Assembly: GCA_964036045.1 (NCBI GenBank)
Contig: OZ038383.1
Coordinates: 61,447,725-61,511,724, forward strand
Direction of reading: 5' to 3'
Length of the DNA: 64,000 bases
Source of the DNA: Eutreptiella sp. 'Long Island Sound 2002'
Taxonomy: Eukaryota > Euglenozoa > Euglenophyceae > Eutreptiales > Eutreptiaceae
Shown here: positions 3,481 through 49,145 of the stretch, in pieces
Position numbering within the stretch: position 1 is the stretch's first letter
Layout: each line of letters opens with the position of its first letter
Notes under the pieces: model-generated
The model's database searches: none
Seen by the model: the letters and a program-made list of their open reading frames with translations, nothing else
What the model was told of the DNA's origin: nothing
Translations under genes and position numbers: made by a program

Positions 3481-5580
3481 CGCGAGATCAACCATGATTC
3501 CCATCCGCCGCCACATCCATTCACTCCCCGATGTCTGGCCGGCTGCGCCGCGGCTCGTCCACGTACCCTCCTCCAGGGACTTCTCAGTGTACACCTTCCA
3601 TGTACTCTTCCTCCTCGCGGTGTCGGCAGCTCCGGCTGGCAGCTTCCTGTCGCGCTCCGGGGGGTGGGGTGATCCTGAAGTGCTCCATGGCGTCTCCATC
3701 GGGTACTTTGATGTTCCAATCCGTGTCCTTCTCGGGGACCTGATCCCTCAGCGCTTCGTACCGGCCATACGCCAGTGGGGCTGGCTCCAGGGCCTGCATC
3801 GGGCGCTTCGGGTGCACGAGGGTGCGGACCGGGTCGCGGCGTCTGCGGTAGTCGGCACTCAGCCAGTCATCACGCTCTGCATCCCTGCTGCGCGGGCTTG
3901 GCATGGGGTCGCTCCGCCATGCGCTGCCACGCACGGAGGGCACGTGGTCGATCTGAGGGGCTCCGCCGCGGGCGCAGGATCACCCTGGAACAGTTCAAGG
4001 TTCCCAGCTGTTGTCCGAGCACGAGTTGAGAGGCGGTGGGTCGCTTCTGGCGCTTCCCGTGTCCTCCAAACTTTCCTGCCTCCTCAGCAGCTCAGTGACC
4101 ACGCCGCACAGCTTCTCAGCTTCCCTCTTGGAAACGCCCAGCTCCTTCCAGGCCTTGGTGGCAACGTTCGCGCTCATGGTGGTCGCAGTCTTGTGATTCT
4201 GGGCCTCGCGCACCAAGTTCCATATCTCCCCCGTGAAGTACACGATCCATCTTGAGGTGCCCTAGTGTATGTTGGATCCTGGCGGTCCATCTGACGGGTC
4301 ACCACCCTGTGGTCTGCCAGGTCGTCCTCCGCCTGGTAGTTCTTTGCCTGGTGGTCCTCCAGGTGGTCCTCCTCCTGGCGGTCCTCCTGGTGGTGCTCCG
4401 CCTGGTAGTCCAGCGGGCAGTCCGCCATCTGGAGATCCTCCTCCCGGGGGGCCCGACAGGACGCCGGATGAGCTGGCCCCTGGGCCGATTCCCATGTCGT
4501 GGTCAGAGTCCGTGTCTCCCAATCAACGTCCAGACCTCGGCGGGTGTCGGCACGGGGGGCTTTCCCTGCTGCAATGGGGAGATTGGAGGCCCTCTCCATC
4601 CAAACCCAGAAGGGGTGCGTTCGCCTGAGCCACCTACGGCTCTGAGAACTCCCATTCTGCAGCCCGTGGCCTCTCAGCGATGCCAACGATCTCCTCCATC
4701 GCCATCCCAGCAGGTGACGAAGGGGTCAGAGTCGTGGGGGTGATTCTCAGCGGAGCCCCGTCCCCTTTCAGAGATCTCACTTGCCCTTGCAGCGGTGACA
4801 GGGGCATGGCCGCTGCCGTCGCTGCTCCGGGAGTCCTCCGCGTTCAGGTCTATCCTCATCCCCGAGGCGGAGTCCCCTTTGAAGAGCCTTCGAAGGGTGT
4901 CCACACGGGGCCCTCCGGGGGGCTTGTCGCGCTTGATATTCTTCCCGGCCTCCTGCAGAGCCCCGATGGTGGCCTCAGCGGGATGCCCCTGGCCTCCTTG
5001 TGGATGCGGGCAGTCCCCTCCTCACGCACCCTTTGCGACTGGGCCTTCTCCGCTTCCAAGCCCCTGATCTCCGCTTCGGACGTGGCCTCCTCCTTGGGGA
5101 CTTTCTGTCGCGCGGTCTCGGTGGCTTCCGGCTTTGTGGCGTCCGGTCAGACCCTTTTCTCTGCGCCCTTTCGTGCCCTATCTTGGGCCAGGGCTTCCTC
5201 CAATGCCCCTACGTCTGCATTCTTCTTGGCGATGGCCTCCTGGGCGGCGCCGGCCTCACGAGCAGCCGCCGCATCCCGCGCATCTGCCTCCATCTCACAC
5301 CTCTCACTGGCAGTGACCGCTTCCCGCGGAGCCGCGGCTCTGACTGCTGCTGAGATGGCTGCCACGGCCGAGGCGTCGGCCGCCATGCCATTCTCCACGT
5401 GCAAAGCCCCCTCCTGCCTGATGAGGACAGCTCTGTCCACACCAGCGTTCTGCTGCGCGGCGCGGTCCCAGGAAACTCAGTGGTTGCGGGGCACGCCGCG
5501 GAGGCGCTCGCAAGCGCGGGCCACCTCGGCTTGTTGGGGGGCGGCGCTGCTGTAGCGGGCAGAGGGCCCTCCCCTAGTGG
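3481..5580 (-). pseudogene. Gag N-terminal region: coiled coil and Gly/Pro-rich linker, decayed
   Basis: The minus frame 5147-5440 is Ala/Glu-rich with heptad-like spacing (GAAQEAIAKKNADVGALEEA), predicted coiled coil. It stops at a TGA near 5,147 but continues in phase with AEIRGLEAEKAQSQRVREEG. Frame 4674-4904 reads DTLRRLFKGDSASGMRIDLN. Frame 4262-4522 is almost pure Gly/Pro (GLPGGAPPGGPPGGGPPG). Frame 3995-4243 is helical (KAWKELGVSKREAEKLCGVV). The plus-strand element also has a coiled coil at its Gag N-terminus (35,220-35,470). Several frame changes make it non-functional. Confidence 0.45.
4270..4460. repeat. Imperfect GGTCCTCC-type simple repeat
   Basis: On the plus strand the motif ggtcctcc/ggtggtcc recurs with small variations, giving the Gly-Gly-Pro-Pro tract on the minus strand. 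It lies inside the decayed gag linker and probably arose by slippage there. Confidence 0.6.
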
Positions 5581-5589
5581 CCGACTCCA

Positions 5590-6045
5590 CGTTGCTGCTT
5601 GGGCCTCAGTGCTTCATGGTGGTTGCCCTTGGATCTTCAGGCAACCACCATGAAGTCGCCCATGGTGGGAGCGCATGGCTCTTTAGCCGGCCAGTCCCCC
5701 TCGTGGAGGTTGGGGCTAAGAGCGAACACGTCTCGGCTGTCACGCCAGACACACCACTTCCGCTGCCACTGGTACTCCCAGCACACCGCTTGGAGTTCCG
5801 CTTCGCTCTCGCACTGATGTCGCTGCTTGGGCCTCAGTGCTTCATGGTGGTTGCCCTTGGATCTTCAGGCAACCACCATGAAGTCGCCCATGGTGGGAGC
5901 GCATGGCTCTTTAGCCGGCCAGTCCCCCTCGTGGAGGTTGGGGCTAAGAGCGAACACGTCTCGGCTGTCACGCCAGACACACCACTTCCGCTGCCACTGG
6001 TACTCCCAGCACACCGCTTGGAGTTCCGCTTCGCTCTCGCACTGA
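5590..6045. repeat. Two-copy 228-bp direct tandem duplication, each copy with a 16-bp perfect inverted repeat
   Basis: The sequence starting near 5,590 recurs 228 bases later (5,818-6,045) with essentially no differences seen by eye. Each copy contains cttcatggtggttgcc (5612-5627; 5840-5855) and its exact reverse complement ggcaaccaccatgaag (5640-5655; 5868-5883), separated by a 12-base loop. 228 is 76 codons, so the duplication keeps phase on either strand. It lies in the leader part of the minus-strand gag. Confidence 0.9.
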
Positions 6046-6055
6046 TGGTCACATC

Positions 6056-6300
6056 CTCCCGAAAGTCCACGTAGTCAGGGGCACATACGCCTCCCTCAGG
6101 CCGGGAGTGACAAAACTCGCCGCCCTGCTCGAGCCCTTGCATGAGGCCCCGGATGATAGCTAGCCAGGGCTCCCGACGCACATTCTTGGGGCTGGCCATG
6201 GGGCTTGGTTGTGGCTGTGGTTGTGGTTGAGGTTCATGATGCAGAAGCTGCAAGGACTAGTTGATGTCAGAGTCCTCCTACTGTTCATGCGGATGCTGCA
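6056..6300 (-). pseudogene. Gag leader fragment next to the nested insertion
   Basis: A minus-strand frame (5834-6253) begins MQLLHHEPQPQPQPQPSP, then NVRREPWLAIIRGLMQGLEQ, and enters the 228-bp duplication, where it stops. The PQ run comes from a ggttgtggctgtgg simple repeat at 6,207-6,233. The fragment is the continuation, across the nested element, of the short frame at 11,692-11,849. I do not recognise a domain. Confidence 0.35.
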
Positions 6301-6313
6301 GGGACTCATGGAT
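6301..6313. repeat. Target-site duplication, left copy
   Basis: gggactcatggat here recurs at 11,683-11,695. The two copies bracket the non-LTR-type insertion. The final t may belong to the adjoining T8 run. Confidence 0.8.
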
Positions 6314-7850
6314 TTTTTTTGAATGTTCTTAACCGCATCAACTTGTTCTGGGGCTGACGTCCCCCATTGAAAGTATTTACAACATGCATAAGGAGAGAAT
6401 CAGTGGCGGCGATGATCTCTTCCAATGGGGCCCTGGCAGGGGCGTCCTGGAGGTCCCGGCACCAGTCGGAGATGAGCCGTATGCTGTTGGAGAACTGTTG
6501 CTTTTCGTCACTAGAAAGCTTCCGAAAAATGCAAGGGGGGAGTGGGGGCTGAGACAGAAGGATCGGGGAGGGGCACTGGAAGACTGCAACCACTGGGTGG
6601 TGGTCAGAGATGGTGTAGTCCGTGAGGATCGACGCATCCAGAAGGGGAAAGTGCGACACTAGGCGAGGGGATGCAAAGATGTAATCCAGCCTTGCTTCGC
6701 TGTCCCAGCGGTCGCTTGCGTAGCGGTTGTACTGCCTGAGGGAGGGGTGCTCTGACCTGAAAGTGTCCACCAACCTAGATGGGAGGTATTCCACCTCCCC
6801 CGTGAGCCAGTGCCACTCATGTAGATCGACCAAGCTGTGCTGGTCAAGTCCGGGATCCAGAACGCAGTTAAAATCACCCTCCACAATGTGATTGGGATGA
6901 TCGTTGAAATAAGAAGCAAGAACTCGCTGTATGGTGTCGCGGTACGGAGCTGGGGCCCCCGTGCGCACCGGGGGGGAGTAAACAGAGAAGACGTGTAAGG
7001 GAGTTGCCTCCGGAAGGGATATTTTGGCACCACAGATAAGGCCGTCGCTGTCTCTGGGCGGGACACAGCTGGTATATCTCGCGATGCGCGGGCCAGCAAT
7101 GACCGACACCCCGTGTCTGTGGCCGCAGACATTTGAGAAGACCTTAGCGCGGTCATTGCCGAAGGCGTACCGCTGTGGGAGGAGAGGGGGAGAGTTTAGC
7201 TCCTGAAGGAGTATAATGTCATATCCCTCGTTTAGGAAATGCAAGATTGCCGCGGGTGTGTTCTGGCTCTTTGCCGTGTTGAAGGACACGACACGGATGG
7301 CCGGGACAGAGGGAAGAGAAGGGGGGGGGCGGCGCAAGCGTTTAGGTTTGAAGGGCTTGTGCACTTGGGGGGGAGGGGGGAAGGAGGGTGTCTGAATGGA
7401 GGAATAGCGGGCACCCAGTGGGGAGTCCGGTGTCAGAAGCGTTGGTATGTGGGCAGGGTCCTCATTCTGTATTGAGGGGTTGGGTTCGCACTGTTCTAGC
7501 GCAGAAATCCGAGAGTGAAGTGCTTGTGTGTATGCTTTGGGCGAGTGGCGTAAGGCCGTGTCACAGGCAGTGCGAAGAGAGCGGTGTATAGCCAGGTCTG
7601 TGGAGACACTTGTGTCTGGGACCAATATTCTCGGATTGATGTGTGCTTGCTCCACAGGGAGAATCTCCGCGATGTGAGAGACGGTGGCGGTGAGGGAGGC
7701 ACCGTGCACGCCCACGCGGGCGAGGACCTCTTGACACCGTCTCATGTTACCCCTACTGCGGTGGCACTGACGGGCGGGAGGGGGGCAGAAAGAATATGGG
7801 GACGGGTAGCATTCGGTAGACTCATCAGAGCTTCCCACAAGGGGAACCAC
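6306..7850 (-). CDS. Endonuclease/exonuclease/phosphatase (APE-type) domain of a non-LTR retroelement
   Basis: The 514-codon frame carries the full EEP catalytic set: RVVSFNT (Asn191), ILLQELNS (Glu217), VYSPP (Tyr291), EGDFNCVLD (Asp326, Asn328), RLDYIF (Asp389) and ISDHHPV (Asp416, His417). The domain covers residues about 185-425 (bases 7298-6576). In non-LTR elements this enzyme nicks target DNA to prime reverse transcription. Residues 1-180 are Pro-rich and unassigned. About 90 residues follow the domain, and the frame ends inside the target-site duplication. The first codon shown is GTG; the phase is open back to a TAA near 7,937, and the first in-frame ATG is near 7,745. The true start is uncertain. 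It could also be entered from the upstream frame. Confidence 0.85.
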   Translation of the reverse strand: MVPLVGSSDESTECYPSPYSFCPPPARQCHRSRGNMRRCQEVLARVGVHGASLTATVSHIAEILPVEQAHINPRILVPDTSVSTDLAIHRSLRTACDTALRHSPKAYTQALHSRISALEQCEPNPSIQNEDPAHIPTLLTPDSPLGARYSSIQTPSFPPPPQVHKPFKPKRLRRPPPSLPSVPAIRVVSFNTAKSQNTPAAILHFLNEGYDIILLQELNSPPLLPQRYAFGNDRAKVFSNVCGHRHGVSVIAGPRIARYTSCVPPRDSDGLICGAKISLPEATPLHVFSVYSPPVRTGAPAPYRDTIQRVLASYFNDHPNHIVEGDFNCVLDPGLDQHSLVDLHEWHWLTGEVEYLPSRLVDTFRSEHPSLRQYNRYASDRWDSEARLDYIFASPRLVSHFPLLDASILTDYTISDHHPVVAVFQCPSPILLSQPPLPPCIFRKLSSDEKQQFSNSIRLISDWCRDLQDAPARAPLEEIIAATDSLLMHVVNTFNGGRQPQNKLMRLRTFKKNP

Positions 7851-8144: not shown

Positions 8145-9814
8145 TTAACGGAAGACAAGGGATACCCTGGAGTCTCGGGGAATGCGCCGCTTCTCCACTG
8201 TGTCATAGTCGCGAGCTGGGATTTGGTGTTTCCATTTGTCGCGGGCTTCCCCAGAAATTAGGAGGAGACTGCGGCGCTGTAGGAAGACTTTTTGCCTTTT
8301 CTTAAAGAGGGTGGATCCAGGGAGGGGACGCGGTTCGAAAACCATTTCCGCACTTGACCCAAAGGAGCCATCCAGGACATGAGGGCCTAGCTGAGGGACG
8401 TCTACGTGGCTCCTCAGGCCACTGCCAGGTTCGTATCGAGCCACTGACCACATATTGGGGCATAAGAGAGAGGAAGGCAGGACCTTGGCGCAGGCAGAGA
8501 ATGCCCGTAGCCCAATCGCTTGAAAAAACTCAGGAGGGGTCGGTTCAAAAGGTTCAACTTCTTTTGATTCTGGATTGTACCTGAATCCGAAATGAAGCAT
8601 TGTGCGGTGCCCCTCGGACAGCCACTGGTGATTCTCATCTGCACTGTAGGACATCACTAGGGCTTCTTCTTCTTCTGAGAAAAATTCATTGGATCTGAAG
8701 GCTCCTGTTATTTCCCGGATGGGGTCGAAAATTTTCCCCGTTTGGAGGTGGAGGTGTGCGATTTTTTCTGTGAGGGAGAGGGGCTTGCTTGTGGACAGGT
8801 AATTGTCCCTCGCGAGACTTAGTTGTTCCGCGCTGCCGTAGGCAGTTGCCGCCTCGATGACTCGTGATAGGAAATCCTGGGCTTCCGAAACTAGGGGGTT
8901 GGCGGGAGCCAAAAGGTTGTCACGCGCGGCCGTGTCGGGGCATTCGGGGTGAAAGACGAGCTGGGACACAGTGAAGCATTCTGCAAGGAGCGCGGATTCG
9001 TAATGAGCATATTTCACCCGGTAGACTCGCACCTTAGCCATGGGGGCGCTGAACAAGGAAATGTGCTGAATTTTCCCAAGCAGGGAGACCCCGAACATTA
9101 CATCAACGTCCGGCGTGGATGACGGGGCGTGTACTTCTACCAGTTCTGGGTCAGGAGGTTCGGGGAGGGGATTGAAGCAAGCCTTCACCGGGGAGGGTGG
9201 GTGAGGGGCATCCATGTGCACTTTCCGGGGAGAGGCGGAGAGGTCCACTTTGTGTCCCGGGTGTTTAGAGCGCCAAGAGGAGTATCCTCCCCAATAGATC
9301 ATGGCTCCCGTAATGCCCCGATACGTGACCAAGTTATCCTCTTGGAAGAGCATGTAACTCATGGAAGTGAGGGAGTCTCGTTGGGGGAGCAAGGGGGTGT
9401 TGTGATAGTTCATGCACACGTAAAACTCGTGTTGTGTTCTGGGAATGGCCCCTAGGATACCGCACCGTCGCGCGGCTTCGCTAGTAAGGAGGGATTTCCA
9501 CACGTCAATTTGTTTGAAGTCCGGCGTGGCCTGTTTGTATGCTTTTGAAGGTACAACTTTGAAAGTTTTGTCCTTCCCTAGGTCGGAACCACGGATGCAA
9601 AAGACCTTGCCGAGCGTCCACAAAGGGTGTTGCAAGATGGTGGAGAGAAGCTTCTCGGCGAGGGGGGTTGGAATGGTGTAATCGAAGCGGAACATATGTT
9701 CGGATGATGATTGTAGAGGCTGTATGCGTTCCTCCGGAAAGAAAGCATTTTTGGAGTTGACCGAGATGTGGTCGTTTTCGAAATGGAAAAGGCGGTTGAT
9801 GAGGACAAAAAAAA
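8145..9814 (-). CDS. AlkB-like (ALKBH8-type) 2OG-Fe(II) dioxygenase domain, C-terminal part of retroelement ORF1
   Basis: The last ~185 residues (bases about 8696-8148) form an AlkB-family domain. FFSEEEEALVMSY is at the entry. HFGFRYNPES follows, then ARYEPGSGLRSHVD with the iron ligands His506 and Asp508, FLQRRSLLLISGEARDKW, the third ligand His566 (KWKHQIPAR), and RVSLVFR with the 2-oxoglutarate-binding Arg586 and substrate-side Arg592 (RX5R). Numbering is from the TTG at 9,923. The spacing follows human ALKBH8's dioxygenase domain. AlkB enzymes oxidatively remove alkyl groups from nucleic acids. The preceding ~380 residues are unassigned. Continuity with the upstream frame requires a frame change near the A8/T8 run at 9,807-9,814. 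Confidence 0.85.
9807..9814. other. A8 (T8 on the coding strand) homopolymer at the frame change in ORF1
   Basis: On the minus strand the coding sequence reaches ...gcccgggat then a T8 run. Upstream of it the 11,406 frame is the coherent one, and downstream the AlkB frame is (FFVLINRLFHFENDHISVNS). A one-base slip in this run joins them. It could be a decay indel, a sequencing or assembly error, or a slippage site. A nearby A6 run in the coding strand (about 9,866-9,871) is a second candidate. Confidence 0.45.
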
Positions 9815-11406
9815 TCCCGGGCTTTGCCACGGCGCCGCCTATACTCTCCTCGTTTCCGCTTGGATTTTTTGGAAAGCTCTTTTGGAGAAGAAACGGTGAA
9901 GTTCGGGAGCAAATGCCGTGCAACTTCGAATCGTAGTGTTGTGCGCACCGCGGCCACCTGGACGGTGCCGTCTACCTTATTTGTGGCCCATTGTAGGGAG
10001 GTGTGAGGGTGCATGATGTCGCCGTAGCGGATGTGTGCGTGGTGCTTGTGACGGGTGGAAAGGTGAAGGTGAAAATATGGGTATTGAGGAGAGTCAAGCA
10101 AGTTGAGCCGCACCGAGCCATCGGGACTAGGTGATGGGTTGTACGTATGGGCATCCGAAAGTCGGTCTACTCCACATACCCAAGGGGCAAGGGAGATCAT
10201 GCCGGGGTTCAAGGGGTTCATGTAGAGCATCTCCGCCGAAAGGTTGTCTTCCATGCCCGGGAGAATGAAGGAGCCTTCGTACACAACACCGGAATCAAAG
10301 GCTTCTTGCAAGGCTTCGTTGATGGCATGGGCCCACTCAGTCCATGTGTTGCCGTATTTGTACTTGGAGTTGTAGTAATCTTGTGGGTGTGGAAAAATGT
10401 AGAACTTCGGGTGGTGATGAAGGATGTCTTTGAGGTACCTAAAATTATCGTGTCCTCTTGTGGAGTAAACATTGTTGCCGGAGCAATCAATGTCATGGAA
10501 AAAGGTGCACCTGTCGCCCGCGCAAAGGTCTATTGTTGGGTGTACTTGATCATAGATCACTTGCTTGTGGTGTTTCTCTAACACGAGTTGATTTGTATCA
10601 ACTCCTGAGGTGTCATGGACATGCGTTTCTCCCCATAGTGCTTGTTGATCGTGTGTGTTGATCTCACCTTTATGTTTAACCAAGAATTTTGCAAAGACAC
10701 CATTCGGGGCAAGGGAAGGGTTGAAGAAGGGTTTTTCGGAATTACCATCCGTTTCATCGGGAGTAGGGTCTTCCCCGTCTTCGGCCTTTTCGTGTGTTCC
10801 TTCGGGAGACGGAATAGCGCTTGGCGTAGATTGCTCCTCACGTGGCGTTGAGAGGGAGTTGTCGGGCTCAACCTCATTGGTTCTCCTTGCGTTGTCGTTG
10901 AGTGCGGCGTTGTTGTTCATTGCCGAATCTCCACACGGGTCTTCGCGTTTTTCGTCTTGTTGTTTCATCTCTCCGGCGTCACAAGGATGGCTTTCTTCGG
11001 TGTTCTCGTGCGTGTCTTCGGGCTCGGAGTCCTGCACCTTCTCGGAGTTGGTTGGCGGAGCGGGCGCTTGGACTTGATGTTGTGGTTCTTGGGCTCCTTT
11101 TCCTTTGGCGGTGTGAGCCGTTGTCTCGGCGAGTGGGAAGAGTTCTTTTGCGACATCTTCGGGTTGTTCATCGTCTGAAATGACATTAGATGACGTGCCT
11201 TCCTCATGTGACGGAGAAAGGTCGAGTGAAGGGTGAAATGGGTCGTTCTCGCGCTTGGCGGGCAAAAGCGTAGGGAGAAGCCGACTTTGAGTCAGTTTGA
11301 CGTCCACTTTAGCCTGAGTTCGAGCAATGAAACGTTTCACGGACTTTAGCTGTTTGCTTTCGGTCTTGTCCTTTGCGGAACGTTCCTTGAGCCCAACTTG
11401 CGACAT
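9815..11406 (-). CDS. Retroelement ORF1 N-terminal region, unknown fold
   Basis: The first ATG in the long minus frame is at 11,406 (MSQVGLKERSAKDKTESKQL). Residues about 1-40 are basic and residues 60-240 acidic, polar and repetitive (disordered; many Glu/Pro/Asn). Then comes a globular-looking ~270-residue part with LCAGDRCTFFHDIDCSGNNV, HHHPKFYIFPHPQDYYN and TRHKHHAHIRYGDIMHPH. I do not recognise this domain. The nominal frame runs on to 9,505, but after about 9,810 its sequence becomes Arg/Lys- and Pro-rich nonsense while the neighbouring frame becomes protein-like. I therefore place a +/-1 shift at the A8 run (9807-9814). Together with the AlkB part, ORF1 would be about 1,080-1,090 residues. 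Confidence 0.6.
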
Positions 11407-11682
11407 TGCCAAGAAAACGTCGTTGCGAAGCTAGGCAAAGGACGGCGCTCACGATTGCGGCTTTGCGCTAGGCAAATAAAATTGACGGCAAGGTGGTTTC
11501 GCTTGCCTCGGCTCCAAATTGCGGTTATGGGACTTTTGATGGTAATCCACGACTTCGCGGGATCAGCCCAGAACTTGAACAGCCCAGGATTTTCGTTAAT
11601 CACCGAGCAGCCTGGACTGCTGGTGGATCCATCAAAACATTTCTGAGGGTCAATTGAAAAAAAATAGACACTCAGAAAGTGA
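11407..11682 (-). promoter_or_regulatory. Putative 5' leader of the non-LTR-type element
   Basis: These ~276 bases lie between the 5' target-site duplication and the first ATG of ORF1. They contain a T-run (minus strand, about 11,657-11,664) and a short alternative frame (11,603-11,346) starting MINENPGLFKFWADPAKSW. Internal promoters of such elements lie in this region, but I see no motif that proves one. Confidence 0.35.
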
Positions 11683-11695
11683 GGGACTCATGGAT
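11683..11695. repeat. Target-site duplication, right copy
   Basis: gggactcatggat, identical to 6,301-6,313. It marks the 5' junction of the nested non-LTR-type element. Confidence 0.8.
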
Positions 11696-17350: not shown

Positions 17351-17870
17351 TTTACCAAAGGCGCTGTTACCAGAAGACAATGGCCGGGATGTCTACCCAC
17401 GGGTACAGGTAAACGCCGGGGCTGTGTGTGATGTTTGCGCGCTGTGTGTAAGCGTCTTGTTGCGTAGCCGGACCAGTGTACTCCCGCACTTGGGCGGCAC
17501 TGCGCTGCTGACGCCTGTGCGCAGTCACACACGGTTGTTTTGGTCCACTGCACCCTGCGTGCCGCGCTGCACAATCAGTGCCTTCTGTGTGGTGCCGCAC
17601 TGCTTGGTGCCGAGCACTGCACTGTACTGTGCGTGCCCTGTTGCACTGTTGTTGTGGGCAGAGGATAGTGGGCAGTGTAACGCACTGCCGCGCGGCTTGG
17701 GCGCTGTGGGCAGTGGAAATCCTGCTTCGCACTGCCGCATTGCCTGAGGGCAGTGGGAAGTGGCACTCCTCCCGTACACTGCCTCTCTGCCTTGGGGCAG
17801 TGGGACGGTCATCTGCTGCAATCTCCTCCAACGCACTGCCGCACTGCCTAGGGGCACTGGGCAGTGGAAC
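17291..17870. repeat. Segmental duplication A1: leader of a 47-bp array
   Basis: From tttgctaccatgtggccagc onward this ~0.58-kb stretch matches 24,489-25,070 with scattered substitutions and small indels, offset by 7,198 bases at its start. Its right part degrades into 47-bp-type units, so it is the edge of the array that follows. Confidence 0.85.
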
Positions 17871-18375
17871 TCCTGCAATACACTGCCTCACTCCCTGGTG
17901 GCAGTGGGCAGTGGAACTCCTGCAATACACTGCCTCTCTGCCTGGGGGCAGTGGGCAGTGGACCGTCTGCAGTACAGTGCCCATCTGCCTGGGGGCAGTG
18001 GGCAGTGGACCTCCTGCAATACACCGCCTCACTGCCTGGAGCCACTGGGCAGTGAAACTCCTGCAATACACTGCCTCACTGCCTGGGGGCAGTGGGCAGT
18101 GCATCTCCTTCAGTGCACTGTCCCGATGCCTGGGGGCAGTGGGCAGTGGACCTCCTGCAATACACTCCCTCACTGCCCTGGGGGCAGTGGGCAGTGCAAC
18201 TCCTTCAATGCACCGTCCCCATACCTGGGGGCAGTTGGCAGTGCACCTACTGTAATGCACTGCCTCGCTGCCTGGGGGCAGTGGGCAGTGCACCTCCTGC
18301 AATGCACTGCCTCACTGCCTGGGGGCAGTGGGCTGTGGACCTCCTGCAATACACTACCTCACTGCCAAGGAGCTG
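17690..18375. repeat. 47-bp minisatellite, block I
   Basis: Units containing ctcctgcaatacactgcc and tgggggcagtgggcagtgg repeat every 47 bases (ctcctgcaata at 17,870 and 17,917). There are about 14-15 units. Each typical unit carries an interrupted palindrome: arms cactgcctcactgcc and ggcagtgggcagtg, with one unpaired t and a 4-base loop. Confidence 0.95.
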
Positions 18376-24488: not shown

Positions 24489-25070
24489 TTTGCTACCATG
24501 TGGCCAGCCGCGGTGGTTCTGCAAGGTGTGCTGGTGCTTGGCGTGTGTTCTGCCAAAGGCGCTGTTACCAGAAGGCAATGGCCGGGATATCTACGCACGG
24601 GTACAGGTAAACGGGCAGGGGGGTGTGTGTTGTGTGCGCGCTGTGTGTAAGTGTGTTGTTGCATAGCTGGACCAGTGCACTTCCGCACCTGGCCGGCACT
24701 GCTCTGCCGATGCCTGTGTGCAGGCACAGGGGGTCCTTTTTGTCCACTGCACCCTGCATGCCGCGCTGCACCATCAGTGCCTCCTGTGTGGTGCCGCACT
24801 GCTTGATGACGAGCACTGCACCGCACTGTGTGTGCCCTGTTGCACTCTTGTTGTGGGCAGAGGGCAGTGGGCAGTGTAACACACTGCCGCGCCGCTTGGG
24901 GGCCTTGGGCAGTGGAAATCCTGCTTCGCACTGCCGCATTGCCTGAGGGCAGTGGGGCGTGGCACTCCTGCCGTACACTACCTCTCTGCCTTGGGGCAGT
25001 TGGCCCGTCATTTCCTGAAATCTGCTGCAACGCACTGCCTCACTGCCTAGGGTCAGTGGGCAGTGGAACT
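24489..25070. repeat. Segmental duplication A2: leader of a 47-bp array
   Basis: Second copy of 17,291-17,870, sharing ccatgtggccagccgcggtg, ggcgctgttaccagaag, cacgggtacaggtaaac and the degenerate array edge. Here too it introduces a 47-bp array. Confidence 0.85.
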
Positions 25071-28000
25071 CCTGCAACACGCTGCCTCACACCCTGGGGG
25101 CAGTGGGTAGTGGAACTCCTGCAATAAACTGCCTCTCTGCCTTGGGGCAGTGGGGAGTGCACCGTCTGCAATACACTGCCTCAGTGCCTGGGGGCAGTGG
25201 GCAGTAGACCTCCTGAGTTACACTGTCTCACTGCCTGGGGGCACTGGGCAGTGGATTTCCTGCAATACACTGCCTCACTGCCAGGGGGCAGCGGGCAGTG
25301 CAACTCCTTCAGTGCACCGTCCCAATGCCTGGAGGGAGTGGGCAGTGGTCCTCCTGCAATACACTGCCTCACTGCCAGCAGTCGGCAGTGCAACTCCTTC
25401 AATGCACCGTTTCAATGCCTGGGAACAGTGGGCAGTGGACTTCCTGTAATGCACTGCCTCACTTCCTGGGGGCAGTGGGCAGTGGACCTCCTGCAGTACA
25501 CTGCCTCACTGCCTGGGGCCAGCGGGCAGTGGACGTCCTGCAGTACACTGCCTCACTGCCTGGGTGCGGTGGGCAGTGGACCTCCTGCAATACACTGCCT
25601 TACTGCCTGGGGATAGTGGGCAGTGGACCTCCTGCAATACACTGCCTTACTGCGTGGGGGCAGCGGGCAGTGGACCTCCTGCAATACACGGCTTCACTGT
25701 CTAGGGGCAGTGGGCAGTGGAACTCCTGCAATACATTGCCCTACTGTGTCGGGGCAGTGGGCAGGGGACCTCCTGCAATACACTGCCTCACTGCGTGCGG
25801 GCAGTGGGCAGTGGACCTCCTGCAAAGCACCGCCTCACTGCCTTCGGGCCGTGGGCACTGGACCACCCGCAATGCACTGTCCCAATGCCAGGGGGCAGTG
25901 GGCATCGGGCCTCCTGCAATAAACTGCCTCACTGCCTGGGGGCAATTAGCAGTGGACCTCCTGCGATACACTGCCTTACTGCGTGGGAGCAGCAGGCAGT
26001 TGACCTCCTGCAATACACGGCCTCACTGTGTAGGGGCAGCGGGCAGTGGAACTCCTGCAATACACCGCTTCACTGCCCTGGCGGCAGTGGGCAGTGGACC
26101 TCCTGCAATGAACTGTCCCACTGCCTGGGGGCAGTTTGTGTGCCCCCTGCCATACACTGCCTCACTGCCCTGGGGGCAGTGGCCAGCGGACCTCCTGCAA
26201 TTCACTGCCTCACTTCCTTGGGGCCAGTGGGCATCGGACCTCCTGCAATGCACTGTCCCAATGGCTGCGGGCAGTGGGCAGTGGACCTTCTGTAATACAC
26301 TGCCTCACTGCCGTGGAGCAATGGGCAGTGGACCTCCTGCAATGCACTGTCCCACTGCCTGGGGGCACTGGGTAGTGGACCTCCTGCAATACACTGCCTC
26401 ACTGCCTGGGGGCAGTTGGCAGTGGAACTCCTGCAGTACACTGCCTCACTGCCTGGGGCCAGCGGGCAGTGGACGTCCTGCAATACACTGCCTCACTGCC
26501 TGGGGGTGGTGGGCAGTGGACCCCCTGCAATACACTGCCTTACTGCCTGGGCGCAGTCGGCATTGGACCTCCTGCGATACACTGCCTTACTGTGTTGGGG
26601 CAGCGGGCAGTGGACCTCCTGCAATACACGGCTGTGTAGGGGCAGTAGGCAGTGGACCTCCTGCAATTCACTGCCTCACTGCCTGGGGCCAGTGGGCATC
26701 GGCCCTCCTGCAATGCACTGTCCCAATGCCTGCGGGCAGTGGGCAGTGGACCTCCTGCAATACACTGCCTCACTGCCTTGGGGCAGTGTGTTTGCCCCCT
26801 GCCATACACTGCCTCACTGCCTGGGGGCAGTGAGCAGCAGACCTCCTGCAATTCACTGCCTCACTGCCCGGGGCCAGTGGGCATCGGCCCTCCTGCAATG
26901 CACTGTCCCAATGCCTGCGGGCAGTGGGCAGTGGACCTCCTGCAATACACTGCCTCACTGCCTGGGGGCAGTGGGCAGTGGACCTCCTGCAATGAACTGT
27001 CCCACTGCCTGGGGGCACTGTGTTTGCCCCCTGCCATACACTGCCTCACTGCCTGGGGGCAGTGAGCAGCGGACCTCCTGCAATTCACTGCCTCACTGCC
27101 TGGGGCCAGTGGGCATCGGCCCTCCTGCAATGCACTGCCCCAATGCCTGCGGTCAGTGGCAATGGACGTCGTGCAGTACACTGCCTCACTGCCTTGGAGC
27201 AGTGGGCAGTGGACCTCCTGCAATGCACTGTTCCACTGCCTGGGGGCAGTGGGTAGTGGAGCTCCTGCAATAGACTGCCTCACTGCCTGGGGGCAGTTGG
27301 CAGTGGACCTCCTGCAATACACTGCCTCACTGCATCCGGGCATTGAGCATTGGACCTCGTGCAATACACTGCCTCACCGCCTGGGGGCCGTGGGCAGTGG
27401 ACCTCCTGCAATACACTGCCTTACTGCCTGGGGGCAGTGGGCAGTGGACCTCCTGCAAGACACTGCCTTACTGCGTGGGGGCAGCGGGCAGTGGACCTCC
27501 TGCAATACACGGCCTCACTGTCTAGGGGCAGTGGGCAGTGGAACTCCTGCAATACACTGCTCTACTGTGTCGGGGCAGTGGGCAGGGGACCTCCTGCAAT
27601 AAACTGCCTCACTGCCTGGGGGCAGTGGGCAGTGGACCTCCTGCAATACGCTGTCCCAACAGCTGGGGGCAGTGGGCATCGGACCTCCTGCAATGCACTG
27701 CCTCACTGCCTGGGGGCTGTGGGCAGTGGACCACCTGCAATGCAGTGTCCCAATGCCTGGGGGCAGTGGGCATCGGGCCTCCTGCAATACACTGCCTCAC
27801 TGCCTGGGGGCAGTTGGCAGTGGACCTCCTGCGATACACTGCCTTACTGCGTGGGGGCAGCGGGCAGTGGACCTCCTGCAATACACGGCCTCACTGTGTA
27901 GGGGCAGTGGGCAGTGGAACTCCTGCAATACACTGCCCTACTGTCTCGGGGCAGTGGGCAGTGGACCACCTGCAATACACTGTGTTACTGCGTGGCGGCA

Positions 28001-31000
28001 GTGGGCAGTGGACCTCCTGCAGTGAACTGTCCCAGTGCCTGGGGGCAGTGTGTGTGCCCCCTCCCATACACTGCCTCAATCCTGGGGGCAGTGGGCAGCG
28101 GACCTCCTGCAATTCACTGCCTCACTGCCTGGGGCCAGTGGGCATCCGACCTCCTGCAATGCACTGTCCCAATGCCTGCGGGCAGTGGGCAGTGGACCTC
28201 CTGCAATACACTGCCTCACTGCCTTGGAGCAATGGGCAGTGGACCTCCTGCAATGCACTGTCTCACTGCCTGGGGGCACTGGGTAGTGGACCTCCTGCAA
28301 TACACTGCCTCACTGCCTGGGGGCAGTTTGCAGTGGAACTCCTGCAATACACTGCCTCACTGCCTGGGGGCAGTTGGCAGTGGACGTCCTGCAATACACT
28401 GCCTCACTGCCTGGGGGCGGTGGGCAGTGGACCTCCTCCAATACACTGCCTTACTGCCTGGGTGCAGTTGGCAGTGGACCTCCTGCGATACACTGCCTTA
28501 CTGCGTGGGGGCAGTCGGCAGTGGACCTCCTGCAATACACGGCCTCACTGCATCGGGGCATTGAGCATTGGACCTCGTGCAATACACTGCCTCACCGCCT
28601 GGGGGCCGTGGGCAGTGGACCTCCTGCAATACACTGCCTTACTGCCTGGGGGCAGTGGGCAGTGGACCTCCTGCAAGACACTGCCTTACTGCGTGGGGGC
28701 AGCGGGCAGTGGACCTCCTGCAATACACGGCCTCACTGTCTAGGGGCAGTGGGCAGTGGAACTCCTGCAATACACTGCTCTACTGTGTCGGGGCAGTGGG
28801 CAGGGGACCTCCTGCAATAAACTGCCTCACTGCCTGGGGGCAGTGGGCAGTGGACCTCCTGCAATACGCTGTCCCAACAGCTGGGGGCAGTGGGCATCGG
28901 ACCTCCTGCAATGCACTGCCTCACTGCCTGGGGGCTGTGGGCACTGGACCACCTGCAATGCAGTGTCCCAATGCCTGGGGGCAGTGGGCATCGGGCCTCC
29001 TGCAATACACTGCCTCACTGCCTGGGGGCAGTTGGCAGTGGACCTCCTGCGATACACTGCCTTACTGCGTGGGGGCAGCGGGCAGTGGACCTCCTGCAAT
29101 ACACGGCCTCACTGTGTGGGGGCAGTGGGCAGTGGAACTCCTGCAATACACTGCCCTACTGTCTCGGGGCAGTGGGCAGTGGACCACCTGCAATACACTG
29201 TGTTACTGCGTGGCGGCAGTGGGCAGTGGACCTCCTGCAGTGAACTGTCCCAGTGCCTGGGGGCAGTGTGTGTGCCCCCTCCCATACACTGCCTCAATCC
29301 TGGGGGCAGTGGGCAGCGGACCTCCTGCAATTCACTGCCTCACTGCCTGGGGCCAGTGGGCATCCGACCTCCTGCAATGCACTGTCCCAATGCCTGCGGG
29401 CAGTGGGCAGTGGACCTCCTGCAATACACTGCCTCACTGCCTTGGAGCAATGGGCAGTGGACCTCCTGCAATGCACTGTCTCACTGCCTGGGGGCACTGG
29501 GTAGTGGACCTCCTGCAATACACTGCCTCACTGCCTGGGGGCAGTTTGCAGTGGAACTCCTGCAATACACTGCCTCACTGCCTTGGGGCAGTTGGCAGTG
29601 GACGTCCTGCAATACACTGCCTCACTGCCTGGGGGCGGTGGGCAGTGGACCTCCTCCAATACACTGCCTTACTGCCTGGGTGCAGTTGGCAGTGGACCTC
29701 CTGCGATACACTGCCTTACTGCGTGGGGGCAGTCGGCAGTGGACCTCCTGCAATACACGGCCTCACTGTGTAGGGGCAGTAAGCAGTGGAACTCCTGCAA
29801 TGCACTGCCCTACTGTCTCGGGGCAGTCGGCAGTTGACCTCCTGCAATACACTGCCTCACTGCCTGGGGGCAGTGGGCAGTGGACCTCCTGCAATGAACT
29901 GTCCCACTGCTTCGGGGCAGTGTGTTTGCCCCCTGCCATACACTGCCTCACTGCCTGGGGGTATTGGGCAGCGGACCTCCTGCAATACACTGCCTCACTG
30001 CCTGGGGCCAGTGGGCATCGGCCCTAGGCATCCTGCAATGCACCGTCCCAATGCCTGCGGGCAGTGGGCAGTGGACCTCCTGCAATACACTGCCTGACTG
30101 CCTTGGAGCAATGGGCAGTGGACCTCCTGCAATGCACTGTCCCACTGCCTGGGGGCAGTGGGTAGTGGACCTCCTGCAATACACTGCCTCACTGCCTGTA
30201 GGCAGTTGGCAGTGGACCTCCTGCAATACACTGCCTCACTGCCCGGGGGCAGTTGGCAGTGGACCTCCTGCAATACACTGCCTTACTGCCTGGGCGCAGT
30301 TGGCAGTGGACCTCCTGCGATACACTGCCTTACTGCGTGGGGGCAGCGGGCAGTGGACCTCCTGCAACACACGGCCTCACTGTTTAGCGACAGTAGGCAG
30401 TGGAACTCCTGCAATACACTGCCCTACTGTCTCGGGGCAGTGGGCAGTGGACCTCCTGCAATACACTGCCTCACTGCCTGGGGGCAGTGGGCAGTGGACC
30501 TCCTGCAATTCACTGCCTCACTGCCTGGGGCCGGTGGGCATCGGCCCTCATGCAATGCACCGTCCCAATGCCTGCGGGCAGTGGCAATGGACCTCCTGCA
30601 ATACACTGCCGCACTGCCTTGGAGAAGTGGGCAGTGGACCTCCTGCAATGCACTGTCCCACTGCCTGGGGGCAGTGGGTAGTGGACCTCCTGCAACACAC
30701 TGCCTCACTGCCGGGGGGCAGTTGGCAGTGGACCTCCTGCAGTACACTGCCTCACTGCCTGGGGGCAGTGGGCAGTGGACGTCCTGCAATACACTGCCTC
30801 ACTGCCTGGGGGCAGTGGGGAGTGGACGGCCTGCAATACACTGCCGCACTGTCTGGGGGCAGTGGGCAGGGGACCTCCGGCAATACACTGCCTCACTGCC
30901 TGGGGGCAGTTGGCAGTGGACCTCCTGCAATAAACTGCCTCACTGCCTCGGGGCAGTGGACAGTGCAACTCCTTGAATGTCCTCTGGCAATGCCTGGGGG

Positions 31001-32085
31001 CAGGCAGCATTGGACCTCCTGCAAAACACCGCCTCACTGCCTTGCGGCAGTGGGCGGTGCAACTGCTTCAATGCACTGTACCAATGCCTGGGGGCAGTGG
31101 GCAGTGGACCTCCTGCAATACACTGCCTCACTGCCTGGGGGCAGTGGGCAGTGAACCTCCTGCATTACACTGCCTCAGTGCCTGGGGTCAGTGGGCAGTG
31201 GACCTCCTGCAAGACACTGCCTCACTGCCTGGGCACACTGGGCAGTGGACCTCCTGCAATGCACTGTCCCAATGCCTCGGGGCAGCCGGCAGTGGGCCCC
31301 CTTCAATACACTGTTCCATTGCTTGGGGGCGGTGGGTAGTGGACCTCCTGCAATACACTGCCTCACTGCTTGGGGGCAGTGGGCAGTGGATCTCCTGCAA
31401 CACACTGCCTCACTTCCCTTGAAGCAGTGGGGAGTGGACGGCCTGCAATACACTGTACCAATGCCGGGCTGCAGTGGGCAGTGGACCTCTTGCAATACAC
31501 TGCCGCACTGCCTGGGAGCCGTTGGCAGTAAATCTCCTGCAATAGACTGCCTCACTGCCTCGGGGCAGTGGAACTCCTTCAATGCACTTTGGCAATGCCT
31601 GGGAGCAGTGGGCAGTGGAGCTGCTGCAATGCGCTGTCCAACTGCCCTGGGGCAGTGGGCAGTGGACCTCCTGTAATGCACTGCCGCACTGCCTGGCAGT
31701 GGTGGGCAGGGGACCTCCTGCAATACACTGCCTCACTGCCCGGGGGCAGTGGGCAGTCGACCTTCTGCACTACACTGCCTCACTGCCTCGGGGCAGTGGG
31801 CAGTGGAGCTCCTGCAATGGGCTGTCTCACTGCCTGGGGGCAGTGGGACAGTTAATTGGGCAGTGCAACTCCTTCAATGCACTTTCGCAATGCCTGGGGG
31901 CAGTGGACAGTGGAGCTGCTGCAATGCGCTGCCCCACTGCCCTGGGGCAGTGGGCAGTGGACCTCCTGTAATGCACTGCCGCACTGCCTGGCAGTGGTGG
32001 GCAGGGGACCTCCTGCAATACACTGCCTCACTGCCGGGGGGCAGTTGGCAGTGGACCTCCTGCAATACACCGCCTCACTGCCAGC
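24850..32085. repeat. 47-bp minisatellite, block II
   Basis: About 150 units of the same 47-bp family as block I. Two unit types alternate irregularly: one with ctcctgcaatacactgcctc, one with ctccttcaatgcactgtccc. The plus strand is nearly free of stops in all frames, giving Cys/Trp/Gly-rich frames of up to 511 codons. The block is cut at 32,085 by the LTR element and resumes at 45,308. Confidence 0.95.
27331..29766. repeat. Tandem duplication of 1,218 bp (26 units) inside block II
   Basis: 27,331-28,548 and 28,549-29,766 are nearly identical at an offset of 1,218. The rare unit with ttgagcattgg at 27,343 reappears at 28,561, and long runs of unit variants follow in the same order. This points to a recent unequal exchange. 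Confidence 0.85.
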
Positions 32086-38443: not shown

Positions 38444-38446
38444 GGT

Positions 38447-40942
38447 TTGAAGGAATGGGGGCCCATGTATTGGCATGGCTCCCTGAAAAATACCAGACGT
38501 ACGGTGGAGAAGATGGTCGCGGATAGGGCGGAGGGGATACTGGTCATAACCGGCATAGGATCCAACCCATGTCCGCTAGAAGGTCTCAAGTCGACGCTGG
38601 ATTCCATCACCCTGACCGAGATGTCATTCGGGCCAGAGGAGGAGTTGTGGATCGACGCCAAGGGTTTATCAATGCCCTCCCCGGGTCAAGCGTGGGGTAC
38701 CAAGGCTTTCCTGGTGGATGGGGCGCAAGCCCAGCCCACGGGTGATGAAGCATTCGTCCGTACGGTTGAGGCGGTGCCCATGCGGGTCATGTTTGAGCCC
38801 AAGGAGGGGACGGATCAGCCAATGGATGCCAATGACGTCCTGTCCCACGCCGAGATCGACCACCTCGTCAACTACATGCGGATGGGGATGCACGACCGTG
38901 TGGCAGCCAAGAAAGGGCGGGCCATGGTCACATCTCCGCATTGGTGGGATGACAAGATGTTGGTCACCGGCAAGTACGAGAAGGATGAGTTCGTGGCGAG
39001 GGTCATGGATCGCATCGCGGACCAATTTGATGGTCTGGTTAGGTCGGACCTGCCGAGGTGGGATTTTCCAAGAATGGGGGCCGGTAGCGACAAGAACTCG
39101 GCTGATGCCGCAAATTTCCGAACATTGTCGGTGGGATGCACGCCCCACGACGATGAAGACGGCATATCGGACGAGGAGAAGTCAGACTCGGACCCGGAAG
39201 AGGCCCATACCGCAGTGCGGTCGGTTGTATCGATACCAAAGCAAGCGGCTGAAGAGGCCCAGGAGAACCCGAAGGTCGCCGAGCTGAAGGAGAGGCTGAT
39301 CAATGCCTATCCGCGGCTATTTAGTGGCGTCGCCAACAAGAACCCTCCAGATCATGGGAGGTTTGGCACAGCAAGGATCAAGCTGATGCCGAACCCCAAG
39401 ATCTATCGTCATCGGGAGTACCAACTTCAGGGCGATCGAACCGAGGCCATGAAGAAGTTGTTGGCCGAGTTTATTGAGCGGGGCTGGATCGAACCCTCCG
39501 ACAGTGAGTGGGCCAGCCCAGCCTTTATCGTGCCCAAGAAAGAGAAGGGCAAGTGGAGGTCCGTGGTTGATTACAGAGGTTTGAACGAGCAAACCGAGCA
39601 CGACTCGTACTCGCTTCCTCTGATCGACACCATCCTCCAAAAACAAAAAGAAAAGCGGATCTTCACGGTGTTAGACCTGAAACACGGCTATCACCAGATG
39701 CCGCTACACCCGGACTCCAAGCCCTGCACAGCGATGTTGACGCCGCTGGGGCCCAGGCAGTGGAAAGTGGTGCCTATGGGCGCCAAGAATGGCAACGCCG
39801 CTTTCCAGCGCATGATGGAGGACCTACTCGGTCCTGTCCGGGACTGTGCCGACCCCTTTCTGGATGACATCATCATCGGGTCCGGCACGGATGAAATGAC
39901 TGAGGACGAGCTCATCGAAGCGCATGAGAAGGATCTGGGCCGAGTGCTCAGCGAGCTGGACAAGCACAACATGGTGTGCAAGCCCACCAAAGCCTCACTC
40001 TTTGTGAAGGAAGTGGAGTTCGCGGGTCACGTGGTTGGTCACGGGCAACGCCGTCCCATGCCTGGGAAGCTGGCGTCCCTGCACCACTGGGAAAAGCCCC
40101 AGACCATCAGCGAACTCCGATCCTTCATGGGGTTCTGCAATTACTATTCGGGCTATGTCCGGATGTATGCAGAACTATCGGGGCCGCTGCACAAGATGCT
40201 GCAGGTGGGCAGGTTGGATGGCCGGAAGGGGAGCAAGAAGAAGCTTGCCTGGACCCCTGAGGCCGAGGATGCGTTCAGCCGCCTGAAGGAGCGACTCCTG
40301 GGGCAGCTGGGGCTATTCTTGGTGTACCCGGACAAGGGATTCGTGCTACGGACGGACGCCTCGGACTATGCTGTAGGGGCAGTCCTCGAGCAGCTCCGGG
40401 ATGACGGGTCGCACCTACCCGTGGCGTTTTGGAGCCAGATCCTGGCCGAGGGCCAACGTGGAACCTGGACCGCGAAGGAGAAGGAGACGTATGCCATTGT
40501 ATGTGTGCTCAGGAAGTGGTCTGGCCACATCGGATTACAACCGGTGGTGGTTTGCACGGACCATCAGTCCTTACTGAGCTGGCACAAGGAGCACGTCGAC
40601 ACCCCCTCCGGACCGGCGGCAAGGAGGGCCCGGTGGCACGAGACGTTCGCAAAGTTCGACCTCAGCGTCGTATATGTCCCGAAGAAGGACAACACTGTGG
40701 CAGATTGCCTCAGTCGATGGGCCTACCCCGCGGGCAAGGCATGGATGGACATATCCAGCCATGGAGACGCCGAGGAGACCGAGGAGGCCAAGCGCATCAT
40801 CGAGATGGAGGAGGCCATGGAGCAAGAGGGCATCAAGTGCTTTGTGGTGATGGCAAACCGTATAGACCTGGCCAAGTTCCAGGGGGCCGAGTCCAATCTA
40901 TTCGAGAGGAAACCCTCGAGCAATGGATGGTGGCCCCTGTAG
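38447..40942 (+). CDS. Reverse transcriptase and RNase H of the chromovirus-like Pol
   Basis: An 831-codon open frame. Residues 1-300 are the linker, including WIDAKGLSMPSPGQ. RT spans about 305-560: HREYQLQGDRTEAMKKLL, KWRSVVDYRGLN, FTVLDLKHGYHQMPL (Asp410), and PFLDDIII with the catalytic Asp pair at 473-474 (F-L-D-D instead of the usual Y-x-D-D), then GFCNYYSGYV. RNase H has all four acidic residues: Asp637 (LRTDASDYAVGAVL), Glu678 (TAKEKETYAI), Asp705 (CTDHQSLLSW), Asp753 (VADCLSR). It copies RNA into DNA and removes the template. The nominal start is TTG right after a TAA; in life it would be the middle of Pol. The phase shifts near 40,900-40,940 into integrase. Confidence 0.9.
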   Translation: MKEWGPMYWHGSLKNTRRTVEKMVADRAEGILVITGIGSNPCPLEGLKSTLDSITLTEMSFGPEEELWIDAKGLSMPSPGQAWGTKAFLVDGAQAQPTGDEAFVRTVEAVPMRVMFEPKEGTDQPMDANDVLSHAEIDHLVNYMRMGMHDRVAAKKGRAMVTSPHWWDDKMLVTGKYEKDEFVARVMDRIADQFDGLVRSDLPRWDFPRMGAGSDKNSADAANFRTLSVGCTPHDDEDGISDEEKSDSDPEEAHTAVRSVVSIPKQAAEEAQENPKVAELKERLINAYPRLFSGVANKNPPDHGRFGTARIKLMPNPKIYRHREYQLQGDRTEAMKKLLAEFIERGWIEPSDSEWASPAFIVPKKEKGKWRSVVDYRGLNEQTEHDSYSLPLIDTILQKQKEKRIFTVLDLKHGYHQMPLHPDSKPCTAMLTPLGPRQWKVVPMGAKNGNAAFQRMMEDLLGPVRDCADPFLDDIIIGSGTDEMTEDELIEAHEKDLGRVLSELDKHNMVCKPTKASLFVKEVEFAGHVVGHGQRRPMPGKLASLHHWEKPQTISELRSFMGFCNYYSGYVRMYAELSGPLHKMLQVGRLDGRKGSKKKLAWTPEAEDAFSRLKERLLGQLGLFLVYPDKGFVLRTDASDYAVGAVLEQLRDDGSHLPVAFWSQILAEGQRGTWTAKEKETYAIVCVLRKWSGHIGLQPVVVCTDHQSLLSWHKEHVDTPSGPAARRARWHETFAKFDLSVVYVPKKDNTVADCLSRWAYPAGKAWMDISSHGDAEETEEAKRIIEMEEAMEQEGIKCFVVMANRIDLAKFQGAESNLFERKPSSNGWWPL

Positions 40943-48300: not shown

Positions 48301-49145
48301 CTGCCCACTGCCTGAAGCCACTGGGTAGTGGACCTCCTGCAATAAACTTCCTCACTGCCTCCCGGCAGTGGGCAGTGGGGCTCCTGCAATACACTGCCTC
48401 ACTGCCTGGTTGCTGTGGGCAGTGAACCTCCTTCAATAGACTGCCTCACTGCCTGGGGGCAGTGGGCAGTGAACCTCCTGCAATACACTGCCTCACTGCC
48501 TGAGGACAGTGGGTAGTGAACCCCCTGCAATACACTGTCGTAATGCCTGGGGGCAGTGGGCAGTGGACCTCCTGCAATACACTTCCTCACTGCCTGTGGG
48601 CAGTGGGCAGTGGACCTCCTGCAATACACTGTCCCAATGCCTGGGGGCAGTGGGCAGTGGACCTCCTGCAATACACCGCCTCATTCCCTGGGGGCAGTGG
48701 GCAGTTCAACTCCTTCAGTGCACTCTCCCAATGCGTGGGGGCAGCGGGCAGTGACACGCGTGCAATACACTGCCTCACTGCCTGAGGGCAGACGGCAGTG
48801 GACCTCCTGCAATACACCGCGTCACTGCCTTGGGGCATCAGGCAGTGGACCTCCTGCAATACACTGCCCCGCTGCGTTGCGACAGTGGGCAGTGGACCTC
48901 CTGCAATACAATGCCCGACTGCTCTGGGGGCAGTGGGCAGTGGACCTCCTGCAATACAGTGCTCCAATGCCTGGGGGTAGTGGGCAGTGGACCTCCTGCA
49001 ATACAGTGCCGCACTTGCCTCCGGGCAGTGGGCAGTGGACCTCCTGCAATACACTGCCCAACTGCCTTGCGGCAGCGGGCAGTTGACCTCCCGCAATACA
49101 GTGCCCGACTGCCCTGGGGGCAGTGGGCAGTAGACCTCCTGCAAT
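45308..49145. repeat. 47-bp minisatellite, block III
   Basis: Continuation of block II on the other side of the LTR element, about 80 units with the same two unit types. Around 47,430-47,460 a foreign catatgcatatgc sequence is inserted in one unit. The right edge dissolves at gcaatacagctgcgggg (49,140). Confidence 0.95.

Follow-up and report, generated by a model that had tools for sequence, protein, structure and literature searches.

The locus raises the question of whether a putative AlkB-type dioxygenase is encoded by a mobile element, and what such an enzyme might do for it. It lies in a stretch of 64,000 nucleotides (hereafter the window) from the alga Eutreptiella sp. 'Long Island Sound 2002' (contig OZ038383.1, positions 61,447,725 to 61,511,724). 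Comparison of the window with related sequences indicates that the domain almost certainly belongs to a family of LINEs carrying an AlkB dioxygenase at the end of the ORF1 protein.

The minus-strand frame 9923..8145 (592 aa) matched Pfam family PF13532 (2OG-FeII_Oxy_2) over its residues 443-592 with an E value of 8.2e-12. An earlier note on this DNA, made from the letters alone, had proposed an AlkB domain with the iron ligands His506, Asp508 and His566 and the RX5R arginines; the profile match bears this out, the residue numbers are right and the two arginines are residues 586 and 592. The bit scores for PF13532 were 46.2 for the window frame and 43.1 for the more complete element copy L020, at a cut-off of 31.2; the divergent relative P0033 fell just below (31.1). 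The domain proper occupies about 8148 to 8600 on the minus strand (end approximate), and the previously given extent of 8,148-8,700 holds if an N-terminal part that may reach about 8700 is included.

We next compared the domain with solved structures. The window AlkB domain alone matched human ALKBH8 (E 1.3e-8), a fission yeast protein (1.7e-8) and ALKBH3 (2e-3). When a profile of 14 sequences was used instead, one of them the fungal protein P0114, ALKBH8 came first (2e-19), followed by ALKBH6 (4e-11), the yeast protein (1e-10), ALKBH7 (2e-4) and ALKBH5 (3e-4), with a DNA 6mA demethylase among the weak matches (0.006). The description as ALKBH8-like thus stands insofar as ALKBH8 is best among the listed solved AlkB chains, ahead of ALKBH2, 3, 5, 6 and 7, but in the single-sequence search the yeast protein was level with it; we use the term for this rank among solved structures and not for a position in a tree. 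The element domain shares with ALKBH8 the HxD...H ligands as well as the core surrounding the distal histidine and 'RRSLL'. ALKBH8 is a tRNA wobble-uridine hydroxylase, neither a repair nor an m6A enzyme, and carries an RRM before and a methyltransferase after its AlkB domain. It is a host gene, whereas the domain here is part of a LINE ORF1, and neither an RRM nor a methyltransferase was matched in L020 ORF1 (Pfam, up to E 1). The order of strands and helices before AlkB was suggestive of an RRM, a candidate that was rejected as there was no Pfam match in 8 of 8 members and none among solved structures. No Pfam family or solved structure matched ORF1 upstream of AlkB. AlphaFold2 models of P0007 (27-row family alignment) and P0003 (29-row alignment) had mean pLDDT values of 28 and 32, respectively, too low for the models to be of use; the P0003 model spanned the whole AlkB domain.

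In the window, the domain is part of an inserted non-LTR retrotransposon (LINE) copy on the minus strand, with its 5' end at 11681 and its 3' end at 6314. The 5' end matches a 5' motif present in 16 of 20 copies fetched from the same genome, and the 3' end matches that of copies L020 and L025. The insertion is flanked by an exact 14-bp target-site duplication, AGGGACTCATGGAT, at 6300..6313 on the 3' side of the element and at 11682..11695 on its 5' side. The A-tail, read from the sequence, occupies 6314..6320 and comprises 8 A when counted from 6320 to 6313, which takes in the first base of the duplication. Target-site duplication and A-tail had both been noticed earlier and were found as described. 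By eye, the DNA into which the element inserted resembles another retroelement, with a protease-like 'DTGAQVS' stretch near 1500 on the minus strand. Close to the 3' side of the insertion, a 228-bp sequence occurs in two exact tandem copies (5594-6047).

From 5' to 3', the window copy consists of ORF1 with AlkB at its end and an ORF2 remnant encoding an EEP endonuclease, immediately followed by the 3' end of the element. ORF1 starts with an ATG at 11406, and its N-terminal part (11406 to 9815, minus strand) has no known domain. At a homopolymer (9812..9820), pairwise alignment with L020 revealed a 1-nt insertion by which ORF1 is split into two frames. The second frame (9814 to 8148) holds the C-terminal part with AlkB at its end; relatives have a single frame. 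The proposal that AlkB lies in the first frame of the element is therefore right as to ORF1, but 8145..9814 is only the C-terminal part of it and the N-terminal part is read in another frame. A stop (8145..8147) directly follows AlkB, where L020 continues for 24 further residues. The ORF2 remnant (7850 to 6385) matches the EEP family PF03372 with an E value of 1.2e-8, and its open frame continues to 6306. It ends at a deletion junction at 6380..6394. The blastn pieces around this junction correspond to 5349-5669 and 9648-9717 of L020, and L025 gave such pieces as well. The roughly 4 kb between 5669 and 9648 of L020, to which its RT and RNase H map, are absent from the window copy. The two matching pieces overlap at the junction by 15 nt when compared with L025 and by 5 nt when compared with L020, which fits deletion or template switching. 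Loss of the RT by splicing was rejected, the joined ends having no clear GT-AG border by eye. With the 1-nt insertion near 9814, the stop right after AlkB and the missing 4 kb of ORF2, the window copy is a dead, broken copy of an abundant LINE. Because this part of ORF2 is missing, an EEP-RT downstream of AlkB is visible only in other copies.

To describe the family, the AlkB domain was queried against the genome of the window (2.28 Gb in 2205 contigs), which yielded 1490 first-look candidates. The best 150 of these were scored; all had E values below 1e-92 and an identity of at least 93%, and a single internal stop occurred in 11 of the 150 matches. As only the best 150 were scored, these numbers say little about older copies. 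Twenty copies were fetched from the scored set, picked for an open frame of at least 1087 codons around AlkB, a choice that favours an intact ORF1 and places no selection on ORF2. In all 20, as picked, ORF1 is one open frame of 1087-1282 codons, encoding a protein of about 1.1 kaa with AlkB at its C-terminus. The domain thus resides within the element frame in every fetched copy and not in a spliced host gene. Behind ORF1 these copies carry an ORF2 with EEP, RT and RNase H, broken to varying degree, so that the proposed combination of AlkB with a downstream EEP-RT does exist in this genome, in copies other than that of the window. Where both ends were found (15 of 20 copies), the element measures 8958-9460 bases. 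Terminal duplications were judged in these 15 copies and not in the other five: in 11 an exact string of 14-18 nt, with 1-3 A of the tail included, recurs at both ends, two share an 8-nt exact part within a longer imperfect one and two share none. All 19 copies that include a 3' end have A-runs of 5-10, and by eye the 5' and 3' end sequences of the element differ.

In L020, ORF2 is open for 1499 codons, with matches to EEP (PF03372, E 9.6e-10) and RT (PF00078, E 2.3e-26) above their cut-offs and an RNase H match (E 6.5e-4, 20.3 bits) below its cut-off of 25.8. In L025 the ORF2 open frame continues to about 9598, and by eye the RT of both copies contains YIDD. Among solved structures, the ORF2 RT was closest to LINE-1 ORF2p (1.2e-16), followed by an R2 protein (1.3e-9). 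Like LINE-1 ORF2p, the element ORF2 has an EEP followed by an RT; what sets it apart is that an RNase H match (sub-cut-off in Pfam, as stated) follows the RT and that an ORF1 with AlkB accompanies it. Neither L020 ORF2 nor the L025 piece matched an integrase in Pfam up to E 1, and no match to the DNA methyltransferase family PF00145 was obtained up to E 1 in L020 ORF1 or ORF2. In eight of the 20 copies (L009, L010, L012, L013, L016, L018, L024 and L028), one ORF2 frame terminates within 8439-8534, and a second begins within 8376-8445. This site (about 8376-8534 in the oriented copies) lies behind the RNase H match; the remaining copies read through.

We then asked whether the enzyme is kept. 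An alignment of 21 rows, the 20 copies plus the window, has the three iron ligands and the first of the two arginines conserved throughout; all five residues are intact in 19 rows, L012 and L019 differing at the last arginine. Among 16 element proteins examined, a ligand is lost in three (P0002, P0020 and P0024); P0002 represents a cluster of 79, of which it alone was examined. The dN/dS across copies, suggested previously as a check, was determined on 19 of the 21 rows, the window copy and L026, whose alignment was broken, being omitted. Pairwise values were 0.30 for AlkB, 0.34 for RT, 0.29 for EEP and 0.38 for RNase H; the two middle parts of ORF1 gave 0.33 and 0.18, and the N-termini of ORF1 and ORF2 gave 0.60 and 0.82, respectively. 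With the tree fixed, a codon model returned omega values of 0.41 (AlkB), 0.49 (RT), 0.51 (EEP) and 0.49 (RNase H), of 0.61 and 0.30 for the ORF1 middle parts and of 0.83 and 1.08 for the N-termini of ORF1 and ORF2. Here, omega = 1 was rejected for AlkB (2dlnL 18.3, p 2e-5), RT (19.3), EEP (18.8), RNase H (14.3) and both ORF1 middle parts (12.1 and 98.2). For neither N-terminus (3.1 and 0.1) could it be rejected.

The filtering was weak for changes seen in a single copy, with 41 nonsynonymous to 26 synonymous changes in AlkB (0.61 of expectation; RT and EEP 0.69), and strong for changes common to at least two copies. For the latter, AlkB had 4 nonsynonymous to 10 synonymous changes (0.15 of expectation, p 9e-4), and the corresponding fractions were 0.16 for RT, 0.19 for EEP, 0.33 for RNase H and 0.11 for ORF1 560-930; in this test shared changes are not independent events, and the neutral expectation is drawn from the single-copy changes. 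The counts for AlkB are small, and the copies were picked for an open ORF1. As judged from these substitutions, AlkB is under purifying selection similar to that on RT. Since shared changes are filtered in AlkB as strongly as in RT, the copy-producing lineage appears to depend on AlkB to roughly the same degree as on RT.

Relatives outside this genome were sought by protein search, which returned 45 proteins with the AlkB frame as query and 67 with the EEP frame. The AlkB stretch by itself gave 19 proteins at E values up to 0.1, including a host protein from a fungus, the AlkB protein P0114 of Blastocladiella britannica (E 7e-16, 36% identity), which was the closest match from outside the element family in this search. 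The AlkB domain of the divergent relative P0033 is 50% identical to that of L020 and retains the ligands. P0033 and P0037 may be pieces of a whole element, and likewise P0028 and the EEP protein P0105. In P0013, an LTR-type RT frame is fused to a fragment of the AlkB-ORF1; this is probably a 5'-truncated copy that inserted into another retroelement. No relatives were found in IMG/VR, prokaryote genomes or phage records; searches of this type require short words in common, so that distant LINEs would escape them.

How does this element compare to known systems? An orchid (Phalaenopsis) Ty3/Gypsy element encodes an ALKBH5-like protein that demethylates and binds RNA in vitro (PMC9289625, in excerpt). 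The likeness lies in an AlkB-type dioxygenase that is encoded by a retrotransposon, has conserved cofactor residues and was retained through subfamily diversification (same excerpt). The orchid element is, however, an LTR element of about 25 kb with AlkB in a separate ORF, as described there, whereas the element here is a LINE of about 9.4 kb with an ALKBH8-like domain fused to ORF1. Its ORF2 has an EEP and a LINE-like RT and, as noted, no integrase match of the kind expected of an orchid-type Gypsy element. The activity of the orchid protein comes from an in vitro assay (PMC9289625, in excerpt), that of the algal LINE is predicted from sequence. A second parallel is SymbioLINE-Dnmt of Symbiodinium, another algal LINE present in many copies; it has EEP, RT and RNase H, and an ORF upstream of its RT encodes a nucleic-acid-modifying enzyme (PMC5890265, in excerpt). 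Purifying selection was reported on both of its domains, but its enzyme is a cytosine methyltransferase and it has no poly-A tails (same excerpt), whereas the element here has AlkB and short A-tails. AlkB domains also occur in plant RNA viruses of the Alpha- and Betaflexiviridae and Closteroviridae, for which RNA repair has been postulated (as cited in the excerpt of PMC9289625). These too are RNA-based parasites carrying AlkB, but they are not integrated elements.

RNA viruses and an LTR retrotransposon (PMC9289625) are thus already known to carry AlkB, and a DNA methyltransferase is known from the ORF1 of a LINE (PMC5890265), both papers in excerpt; AlkB in a LINE is a variant that was not found in the literature covered. 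This literature was the open-licence one, including excerpts of PMC6338049 and PMC11963269, with repeat databases outside its scope. The statement of the earlier note that no well-described family has this architecture accordingly holds for LINEs within that literature; it was too broad in that an AlkB ORF with in vitro activity has been published for an LTR retrotransposon (PMC9289625, in excerpt). AlkB would then occur in a LINE as well as in an LTR element and in RNA viruses. The orchid domain being ALKBH5-like and the algal one ALKBH8-like may point to separate captures and to a recurrent need of RNA-based parasites.

What, then, might the domain do for the element? On balance, we lean slightly towards a LINE in which an ALKBH8-like AlkB domain within the ORF1 protein would oxidatively demethylate or repair the RNA of the element; for element RNA as the substrate, taken by itself, we see an even chance. 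LINE ORF1 proteins bind element RNA. Binding of this kind would bring the dioxygenase to that RNA, from which AlkB would oxidatively strip N-methyl groups. Its targets might be damage such as m1A or m3C, which would stop reverse transcription of the 9.4-kb template, or, alternatively, host marks such as m6A, which could flag element RNA for host control. The methyl groups would be removed before or during target-primed reverse transcription by the ORF2 protein. Speaking for this reading are the PF13532 and ALKBH8 matches, the LINE anatomy, the conserved ligands (also in the 50% identical relative) and the selection on AlkB, with the orchid protein as the nearest tested case (PMC9289625, in excerpt). 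Speaking against it are the tRNA function of ALKBH8, the missing Pfam or solved-structure match upstream of AlkB that would point to RNA binding, and the ligand losses in three of 16 element proteins.

In the profile search ALKBH8 led the solved relatives by far, which would also fit a function of the ALKBH8 type, in which AlkB modifies host tRNA or other host RNA and thereby favours translation of element RNA. Likeness among AlkB enzymes does not settle the substrate, however, and L020 ORF1 yielded neither an RRM nor a methyltransferase, the domains on either side of AlkB in ALKBH8; we regard this reading as unlikely. Slightly less likely still is a function on the DNA side, with AlkB stripping methyl marks such as 6mA from new element DNA and so delaying silencing. 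The DNA 6mA demethylase among the solved matches (E 0.006) points in this direction, and SymbioLINE-Dnmt sets a precedent for a DNA-modifying enzyme in a LINE ORF1 (PMC5890265, in excerpt), but that match is far weaker than the one to ALKBH8.

The fold may also have ceased to be an enzyme and serve the ORF1 protein only as a binding or structural module, which would agree with the loss of a ligand in three of 16 element proteins and the altered last arginine in two of 21 rows. This appears improbable, as the iron ligands are unchanged in all 21 rows and retained in a relative that is only 50% identical. Finally, mobile elements do capture sequences, and the window copy itself is dead, so that AlkB might be a host sequence captured by chance and of no function for the element. 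We consider this very improbable, given that AlkB is in frame within ORF1 in the 20 fetched copies, is under purifying selection and also occurs in the divergent relative.

A further and more tentative reading, which we think somewhat doubtful as a whole, would be that this LINE has incorporated an enzyme for RNA repair or mark erasure into the protein of its RNP. Each template would then bring along an eraser to the place where target-primed reverse transcription occurs, a fold of the ALKBH8 type would have been re-aimed from tRNA to element RNA, and the spread of the element to more than a thousand candidate copies would depend on the enzyme. A LINE that retains AlkB under selection, with many young copies in a sequenced alga, makes it testable whether RNA methylation or damage limits retrotransposition.

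Elsewhere in the window, a Ty3/Gypsy-like element occupies 38444-42045 on the plus strand. Its frame at 38444-40939 contains RT (E 2e-25) and RNase H, and the frame at 40405-42045 has an integrase zinc-binding match and a sub-cut-off match to the integrase core. Tandem arrays of a 47-bp unit are located at 24881-32082, 45334-49153, 60861-63502 and 17683-18366 (153, 81, 56 and 14 copies, respectively). A further array at 49861-60587 consists of a G+C-rich 23/46-bp unit, with more than 400 copies of the 23-mer up to 59509, and yields chance frames of up to 1693 codons. Of dinoflagellate spliced-leader strings, the window matched no more than an 8-nt core, at two places. In the genome at large, there are 54 matches to the psaA/psaB family. 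Two full ones lie on the plastid contig C394 (105,135 bases). The PsaA encoded there scored best with chain 9m4f and next with chains of the red lineage, those of Isochrysis and Emiliania (8z11 and 9uen, named in PMC12716418) ranking below red algal and diatom ones; by itself this order would suggest a red-lineage alga. Many of the other matches are nuclear fragments (C7, C8, C9, C12, C16 and others) that look like plastid DNA in the nucleus; the fragment on C7 is nearly whole and without a stop.
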